NCBI GenBank assembly: GCA_024644015.1
Contig: JAHELV010000014.1
Coordinates: 18,073-51,632 of the forward strand
DNA: 33,560 nt
Direction of reading: 5' to 3'
From: Nitriliruptorales bacterium
GTDB lineage: Bacteria > Actinomycetota > Nitriliruptoria > Euzebyales > JAHELV01
The notes under the pieces: generated by a model
What the model was told of the DNA's origin: nothing
Seen by the model: the letters and a program-made list of their open reading frames with translations, nothing else
Database searches by the model: none
In this document: piece by piece, positions 1,478-30,486 of the stretch
How the letters are laid out: each line of letters opens with the position of its first letter
Position numbering within the stretch: the stretch's first letter is position 1
Made by a program: the position numbers and the translations under genes

Positions 1478-1519
1478 CTGCTGAGCGAGCGCTTAGGCAC
1501 CTAGGGCGGGGGACGACAG

Positions 1520-1584
1520 GACCGGCGTAAACAATGCAAGCGGCAGGCGTCAGGAACTGCCGAAAGCCTTCCGACTTGCAGGTC
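1520..1584 (+). ncRNA. Candidate structured 5' leader RNA of the major pilin gene (possible pseudoknot)
   Basis: The leader can fold into a nested structure. The outer pair is GACC (1520-1523) with GGTC (1581-1584). Stacked on it is TGCAAG (1535-1540) with CTTGCA (1575-1580). Inside lies the hairpin CGGCAG (1541-1546)/CTGCCG (1557-1562). Its loop bases GGAA (1553-1556) can pair with TTCC (1569-1572) just downstream, giving an H-type pseudoknot. An 11-nt bulge, GGCGTAAACAA, remains in the 5' strand. This degree of interlocking complementarity suggests a functional RNA, possibly a riboswitch. By eye it does not satisfy the c-di-GMP-I or c-di-GMP-II consensus, so the class is unknown. The pairing was worked out by hand and not by energy calculation. 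Confidence 0.4.
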
Positions 1585-1590
1585 AAACGA

Positions 1591-1604
1591 GCACCAGGAG
1601 GTGC
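1591..1604 (+). promoter_or_regulatory. Shine-Dalgarno-sequestering hairpin of the first prepilin gene
   Basis: GCACC (1591-1595) and GGTGC (1600-1604) pair around the loop AGGA. A near-perfect SD, AGGAGG (1596-1601), lies across the loop and 3' arm. The TTG start at 1608 follows six bases later. When folded, the hairpin hides half of the ribosome-binding site. It follows the structured leader directly, so it is a natural expression platform for translational control. Confidence 0.5.
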
Positions 1605-1607
1605 GTT

Positions 1608-2003
1608 TTGTTCCTCGCAATTCGTAAGCGTCTGGACGAGCGTGAAGACGGGTTCACCCTGATCGAGCTGCTCGTCGTCGTGATCATCATCGGGATCCTG
1701 GCGGCTATCGCAATCCCGGCCTTCCTGAACCAGCGCACGAGCGCATGGCAGGCTTCGGTCGAGTCGGACGTCCGCAACGCGGCGATCGACATGGAGACCG
1801 CCGCCACCCAGAACGGCGGCAACTACCCGGCCGCGCTGCCGGGGACGGTGCAGACGTCCGCCAACGTCGCGCTGGCGCTGGACGGTACCAGCAACGCGAA
1901 CCAGTTCTGCATCGTTGGCACGCACGCCAGCATCGGCGCAGCCAGCGCGTGGTTCGACAGTGACCAGGGAGGGCTCGAGACCGGCGGTGGAGGCGGCTGC
2001 TAG
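1608..2003 (+). CDS. pilA: Type IV prepilin (first pilin, PilA-like)
   Basis: A 131-residue type IV prepilin. A short charged leader of 15 residues ends in glycine (G15), and mature pilin begins at F16. The sequence FTLIELLVVVIIIGILAAIA is the classic N-methylated assembly helix, with the conserved glutamate at mature position 5 (E20). The prepilin peptidase is expected to cut between G15 and F16. The C-terminal part has only two cysteines, C101 and the last residue C131, likely bridging the D-region loop. Glycine-rich residues precede the final Cys. The start is TTG, chosen because AGGAGG lies six bases upstream and because it gives a normal leader. Expression is probably controlled by the leader RNA and the SD hairpin described here. 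A strong hairpin follows the stop. Confidence 0.93.
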   Translation: MFLAIRKRLDEREDGFTLIELLVVVIIIGILAAIAIPAFLNQRTSAWQASVESDVRNAAIDMETAATQNGGNYPAALPGTVQTSANVALALDGTSNANQFCIVGTHASIGAASAWFDSDQGGLETGGGGGC

Positions 2004-30287: not shown

Positions 30288-30321
30288 TACGCTGGTGTCG
30301 CGATCGTGACACACGATCGCG
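30288..30321 (+). promoter_or_regulatory. Likely rib promoter -10 and a perfect 10-bp hairpin at the mRNA 5' end
   Basis: TACGCT (30288-30293) is a plausible -10 that would start transcription near 30300. CGCGATCGTG (30299-30308) and CACGATCGCG (30312-30321) form a perfect 10-bp stem with loop ACA. The stem ends exactly one base before P1 of the FMN riboswitch. It could protect the 5' end or stack on the aptamer; as DNA it could also be an operator. No clear -35 is seen. Confidence 0.5.
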
Positions 30322-30474
30322 CGCCTTCGGGGCAGGGTGAAATTCCCGACCGGCGGTGTCCCGCGCAGCAGCGCGGGGAGCCCGCGACCCGACCGGCACG
30401 GTGCCGGACGGTGGACCTGGTGAGTCTGCGTACAAGGCCAGGGCCGACGGTGAGAGTCCGGAGAGGAGAAGGCG
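30322..30474 (+). ncRNA. FMN riboswitch (RFN element)
   Basis: The conserved aptamer is complete. CTTCGGGGCAGGGTGAAATT (from 30325) leads into CCCGACCGGCGGT. GAGCCCGCGACC lies in the middle, CTGGTGAGTCTGC follows, and GGGCCGACGGTGAGAGTCCG precedes the end. P1 forms between CGCCTTC (30322-30328) and GAAGGCG (30468-30474). The variable arm includes CCCGCGC/GCGCGGG (30360-30376). No terminator follows. The ribD SD, GGAAAGG (30474-30480), touches the 3' strand of P1, so FMN binding most likely blocks translation. It controls ribD-ribE-ribBA by feedback. Confidence 0.95.
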
Positions 30475-30486
30475 GAAAGGTCATCG

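Follow-up and report, generated by a model that had tools for sequence, protein, structure and literature searches.

The pilA leader of a Nitriliruptorales bacterium may derive from a c-di-GMP-I riboswitch leader by loss of the aptamer

The GEMM or c-di-GMP-I riboswitch (RF01051) is known to control pilus genes elsewhere among bacteria. Among the 66 genomes of the class searched here, aptamers of the c-di-GMP-I-GGC type (RF03167) stand in the pilA leaders of four sister families (f2, f3, f4 and f5), some of them below the gathering score. Whole-genome counts, made on incomplete genomes and with stricter filters that may miss weak matches, place RF03167 in 37/66 genomes at E up to 0.01 and in 12/66 over the gathering score. 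The window's own family, represented by four genomes, had no match in this whole-genome search. In f2 the aptamer sits between GCAAG and CTTGC, and pilA leaders that bear a GEMM have GCAAG at the corresponding position. The pilA leaders in other families of the class are preceded by CTYAAG-N14/15-GCCGAT, which is close to the flagellar/WhiG consensus TAAA / GCCGATAA (PMC8325347). A second route from c-di-GMP to pili is described in Rubrobacter, where RsiG-(c-di-GMP)-WhiG is reported to control type IV pili (PMC8325347).

The window (the whole 33,560-nt stretch analysed, G000:C118:18073-51632) carries a type IV pilus cluster. A sequence-only reading had proposed that positions 1520-1584, upstream of the major pilin gene, form a new pseudoknotted regulatory RNA from four complementary pairs. 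All four pairs are found where that reading placed them, and the features of the locus are as follows.

165-1388: PilC gene
1492-1519, plus strand: candidate WhiG/flagellar-type pilA promoter, with -35 CTTAGG (1492-1497), a 14-nt spacer and -10 GACGACAG (1512-1519)
1520-1523 and 1581-1584: outer pair GACC / GGTC
1525-1607, plus strand: predicted 5′ UTR of the pilA mRNA, from the candidate promoter position
1535-1540 and 1575-1580, plus strand: TGCAAG and CTTGCA, the 5′ and 3′ strands of the enclosing helix P0
1541-1546 and 1557-1562: CGGCAG / CTGCCG, inner stem of the pseudoknot fold P
1553-1556 and 1569-1572: GGAA / TTCC, pseudoknot pair
1541-1548, plus strand: 5′ side of hairpin B, CGG (1541-1543) and AGGC (1545-1548)
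1549-1565, plus strand: apical loop of hairpin B, 17 nt, which includes GGAA (1553-1556) and CTGCCG (1557-1562) of fold P
1566-1573, plus strand: 3′ side of hairpin B, GCCT (1566-1569) and CCG (1571-1573); TTCC is 1569-1572
1591-1604, plus strand: ribosome-site hairpin GCACC-AGGA-GGTGC, holding AGGAGG (1596-1601)
1608-2003, plus strand: pilA, the major type IV pilin gene, with a TTG start, a Pfam N_methyl match (PF07963, 3e-8) and the prepilin motif GFTLIELLVVVI
2095-2454: second pilin gene
Downstream: an HTH gene, PilM and PilO, further members of the pilus cluster

In dinucleotide shuffles of the 65-mer, nested 6-bp/6-bp helices arose in 23/20,000 cases, and in 2/20,000 together with the pseudoknot. 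Over the whole plus strand of the window, the nested architecture was observed 31 times against 23 in shuffled windows (10 against 7 with the pseudoknot). Since this is only slightly above the shuffles, the pattern alone is weak evidence, and the case is therefore carried by conservation and context.

A DNA search of the 66 genomes yielded one close homologue, G001, which belongs to the same genus and is 86% identical. The block 1458-1735 is 84.8% identical between the two, yet the 3′ part of pilA is unalignable; identity in the long blocks that align along this stretch is 75-83%. Within the 46-nt core identity reaches 91%, against 60-69% in neighbouring stretches, and the four substitutions all fall at positions that are unpaired in both folds. 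Both strands of P0 are unchanged in G001, as is the ribosome-site hairpin. In the apical loop only 1549, 1550 and 1565 differ, leaving 14 consecutive bases identical. These invariant bases are the best argument that selection covers more than hairpin B. The description of the segment as a structured leader of the major pilin was right, and its hairpin is conserved. On contig C200 of G001, insertions make both the pilC-pilA and the pilA-HTH gap a few kb longer than in the window, and the former holds two ORFs of 388 and 450 aa that match no NCBIfam model.

Searching the 66 genomes with a covariance model of the two leaders (R1) gave no convincing further member. A weak match in G011 (22 bits) rests largely on the flanks, and matches in G005, G058 and G009 (13-18 bits) lie at unrelated sites and were taken as chance. 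Similarly, a pattern scan of the genome contigs, for which about a dozen chance matches had been estimated beforehand, returned 32 stretches, the only recognised pilA leaders being those of G001 (L088) and G011 (L106). Beyond these we read L087, which appears to be transposase coding sequence.

At 9.6 bits, the promoter candidate at pilA is a weak match alone: sites of the training set reach 15.5-21.9 bits, and the 95% level in shuffles is 11.0. A site with a strong -35 lies before the HTH/pilM operon (2548-2575, CTCAAG-N14-GACGACAG, 17.6 bits), with the same GACGACAGG and spacing as at pilA. In G001, GACGACAGG is kept at pilA, and the counterpart of the pilM-operon promoter reads CTCAAG with GTCGACAGG. 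An initial candidate at 1463 (CTCAAT ... AGCGAGCG) reached 4.4 bits and was dropped for 1492-1519. With its -10 at 1512-1519, transcription would start near 1525, inside the proposed element, and GACC (1520-1523) would therefore not be in the RNA. The outer GACC/GGTC helix fails on a further count, as G001 has GAAC and AGGT here, which are unable to pair. The purine-rich bulge that had been offered as a ligand pocket is not conserved and probably precedes the transcript start or coincides with it; given the loss of the outer pair and the position of GACC, it is probably just the beginning of the transcript.

Inside the enclosing helix two mutually exclusive folds compete, the TGCAAG/CTTGCA helix being common to both. 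Hairpin B is a long imperfect hairpin, GCAAG-CGG-C-AGGC ... GCCT-T-CCG-A-CTTGC, and is essentially the predicted optimum in both genomes (-21.6 kcal/mol in the window and -20.6 in G001; -18.2 and -17.4 without the small apical pairs). In fold P the two nested helices, TGCAAG and CGGCAG, contribute -14.3 kcal/mol, and GGAA/UUCC adds about -2. The folding z-score is -2.0 for 76 nt; the 46-nt core gives -3.0 in the window and -2.3 in G001. The stems of the proposed pseudoknot are all invariant in G001, but the competing hairpin B is predicted to be more stable and is equally invariant, with no compensatory change in the stems of either fold. As both are fully conserved, two sequences cannot separate them. 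That the four core substitutions avoid all stems has a hypergeometric probability of 0.006 for fold P (32 paired positions) and 0.03 for hairpin B, values that are only suggestive and cannot decide, since they come from four substitutions in one comparison.

The enclosing helix can be followed further afield. In eight sister-family leaders, the cognate strands of P0 pair with a mean of -17.7 kcal/mol against -14.9 for swapped strands, a difference reached in 41/20,000 permutations (about 0.2%), and in 138/20,000 when the invariant GCAAG/CTTGC was left out. This is support rather than proof, since the eight leaders share ancestry, and we placed the strand boundaries manually at GCAAG and CTTGC once the pattern had been noticed. 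The test was used in place of a duplex search of the whole 5′ against the whole 3′ aptamer flanks, whose segments were too long to be informative. On this comparison TGCAAG/CTTGCA is a real helix, matching that which encloses the RF03167 aptamers in sister-family pilA leaders, and hairpin B has the same form as the sister-family enclosing helix. Likewise, GCACC(N)GGAGGTG, as in the ribosome-site hairpin, is seen again in several sister-family leaders.

The aptamer itself is missing. Rfam searches of 1 kb, of 141 nt and of the G001 leader, run both at the gathering score and with E relaxed to 10, returned nothing relevant, and none of RF01051, RF03167 and RF01786 matched the leader of either genome even at the relaxed limit. 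Read against the sister-family leaders, 1525-1607 lacks the core GGCAAACC ... GACGCAAAGCC ... GGGCTGCC. The window leader shares with the RF03167 leaders the gene, a similar upstream position, a candidate promoter of the same type, the ribosome-site hairpin and, as in f2, an enclosing helix of GCAAG/CTTGC type, whereas it has neither the aptamer nor the GGCAAACC / GACGCAAAGCC / GGGCTGCCTCG core, and only 34 nt separate its helix strands against well over 100 nt in those leaders. A pilus-gene leader with an enclosing helix and a ribosome-site hairpin is the setting of c-di-GMP-I members, a context that alone does not define the class. We also considered c-di-GMP-II (RF01786), of which the string AAACAATG and a pseudoknot strand followed by GA are reminiscent; here, AAACAATG lies outside the helix, and with no model match the resemblance was rejected. 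The leader is therefore a member of none of these three classes. The link to c-di-GMP that had been suggested is real in context, with RF03167 riboswitches at the same pilA-leader position in sister families. Two sequences with no compensatory change and no second gene context do not establish a new riboswitch class.

A FliA/WhiG-family sigma factor scores over the cut-off in the window's genome, G000 (best model WhiG, 330 bits), and in G001, and GGDEF domains number 13 and 14, respectively. In G002 and G003 we found no pilA match and no FliA/WhiG-type sigma over the cut-off, and each has 3 GGDEF domains. Sigma factor, high GGDEF content, pilA and hairpin leader thus co-occur in G000 and G001. 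With its WhiG-type sigma gene and the candidate WhiG-type promoters upstream of pilA and of the pilM operon, the window's genome recalls the Rubrobacter RsiG-(c-di-GMP)-WhiG system, which differs in acting at transcription initiation, and from whose consensus GCCGATAA the window promoters deviate.

Several explanations compete for these data. One would dispense with a dedicated RNA element, explaining the conservation by the promoter, the ribosome site and a short divergence, with the inner stems arising by chance in a high-GC genome. The modest window-wide excess over shuffles, the single homologue and the level of identity in the long aligned blocks all agree with it, but the enclosing helix has a supported counterpart in sister-family leaders and the core is better conserved than its neighbouring stretches; we regard this account as unlikely. 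A CsrA-type leader, in which the upstream-loop CAGGA and the ribosome-site CCAGGAGG would act as paired GGA sites repressing pilA translation, draws on two CAGGA motifs in predicted loops (1551-1555 and 1595-1599), the second over the ribosome site, and on a CsrA gene in G000 (86.6 bits) that adjoins fliW in a flagellar cluster on C144 (L128). However, the three remaining genomes of the genus yielded no CsrA, among them G001 (87% complete), which keeps the leader, and AGGAGG is an ordinary ribosome site. We think such a leader very improbable.

A further possibility is that, within the enclosing helix, the c-di-GMP-I aptamer gave way to a new, small, pseudoknotted one that senses c-di-GMP or some other ligand, with fold P as the bound state and hairpin B as the free state; TTCC, once released from the pseudoknot, could pair with the ribosome site. 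The gene and position are those of the sister-family c-di-GMP riboswitches, the genome is rich in GGDEF domains yet has no RF03167 match, and the two mutually exclusive folds are fully conserved, with the four substitutions sparing the 32 fold-P positions. Against this, there is one homologue with zero compensatory changes, no second convincing copy in G000, G001 or the rest of the class, and no Rfam match; moreover, hairpin B is predicted to be the more stable fold, and since P0 is common to both folds it is not evident how a switch would affect access to the ribosome site. A replacement of this kind is distinctly unlikely. Its more specific form, a pseudoknotted RNA of ~46 nt that replaced the c-di-GMP-I aptamer on an inherited expression platform and responds to c-di-GMP or a related nucleotide, would be a new and very compact c-di-GMP riboswitch class born by aptamer swapping, and we hold it to be highly unlikely.

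We favour, with a probability of about one half, the reading that this pilA leader is a c-di-GMP-I derivative in which the WhiG-type promoter, the enclosing helix and the ribosome-site hairpin were kept and the aptamer was lost. In related families the order is WhiG-type promoter, GCAAG, c-di-GMP-I-GGC aptamer, CTTGC, ribosome-site hairpin and pilA; in the syntenic leader of the window's family a 34-nt stem-loop stands in the aptamer's place. We infer loss rather than late gain by parsimony, because four other families of the class have the aptamer at pilA. With no recognisable aptamer remnant, however, loss in situ and wholesale replacement look alike. The hairpin most likely forms constitutively and would set the stability and translation of an abundant pilA mRNA; c-di-GMP control, if kept, might act at transcription via the WhiG-type sigma factor. 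Two points count against the lost-aptamer reading: the element is present in two sequences only, and the 14 identical loop bases, with flanks at 60-69%, would be more than a passive filler loop needs. If it is right, this is a traceable riboswitch leader without its sensor but with the flanking helix kept, in a genome still rich in c-di-GMP signalling and with a WhiG-type sigma factor. This raises the question of whether pilin control has moved from RNA to transcription initiation or whether a new sensor sits on the same platform.

Two other GEMM-less pilA leaders are found in the order, in G011 and G014, and suggest repeated aptamer loss; that of G011 keeps GCAAG...CTTGC around unrelated filler. 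In G011 a 121-nt pilA leader occurs twice (L106 3005-3125 and 3632-3752), 627 bases apart, each copy preceding a pilin gene, and both pilins have the same N-terminus. Within the window, perfect inverted repeats lie 3′ of pilC (1411-1440, 13-nt arms and a 4-nt loop) and 3′ of pilA (2019-2051, 16-nt arms and a 1-nt loop), and are probably terminator or processing hairpins. An FMN riboswitch (RF00050, 76.2 bits) lies at 30319-30477; as a conservation yardstick it gave no alignment, the matching part of G001 being beyond the contig end. Finally, eight pilA-leader GEMMs of 22-45 bits (gathering score 59) have a variant core: L013 1316-1409 (plus strand), L016 1331-1413 (plus strand), L026 184-280 (minus strand), L041, L042, L045, L046 and L048. 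In these, GGGCGA... and AGCAA(C/T)G(C/T)CACGGG, with small variations, replace GGCAAACC and CGCAAAGCCACGGG, possibly reflecting an altered ligand pocket.
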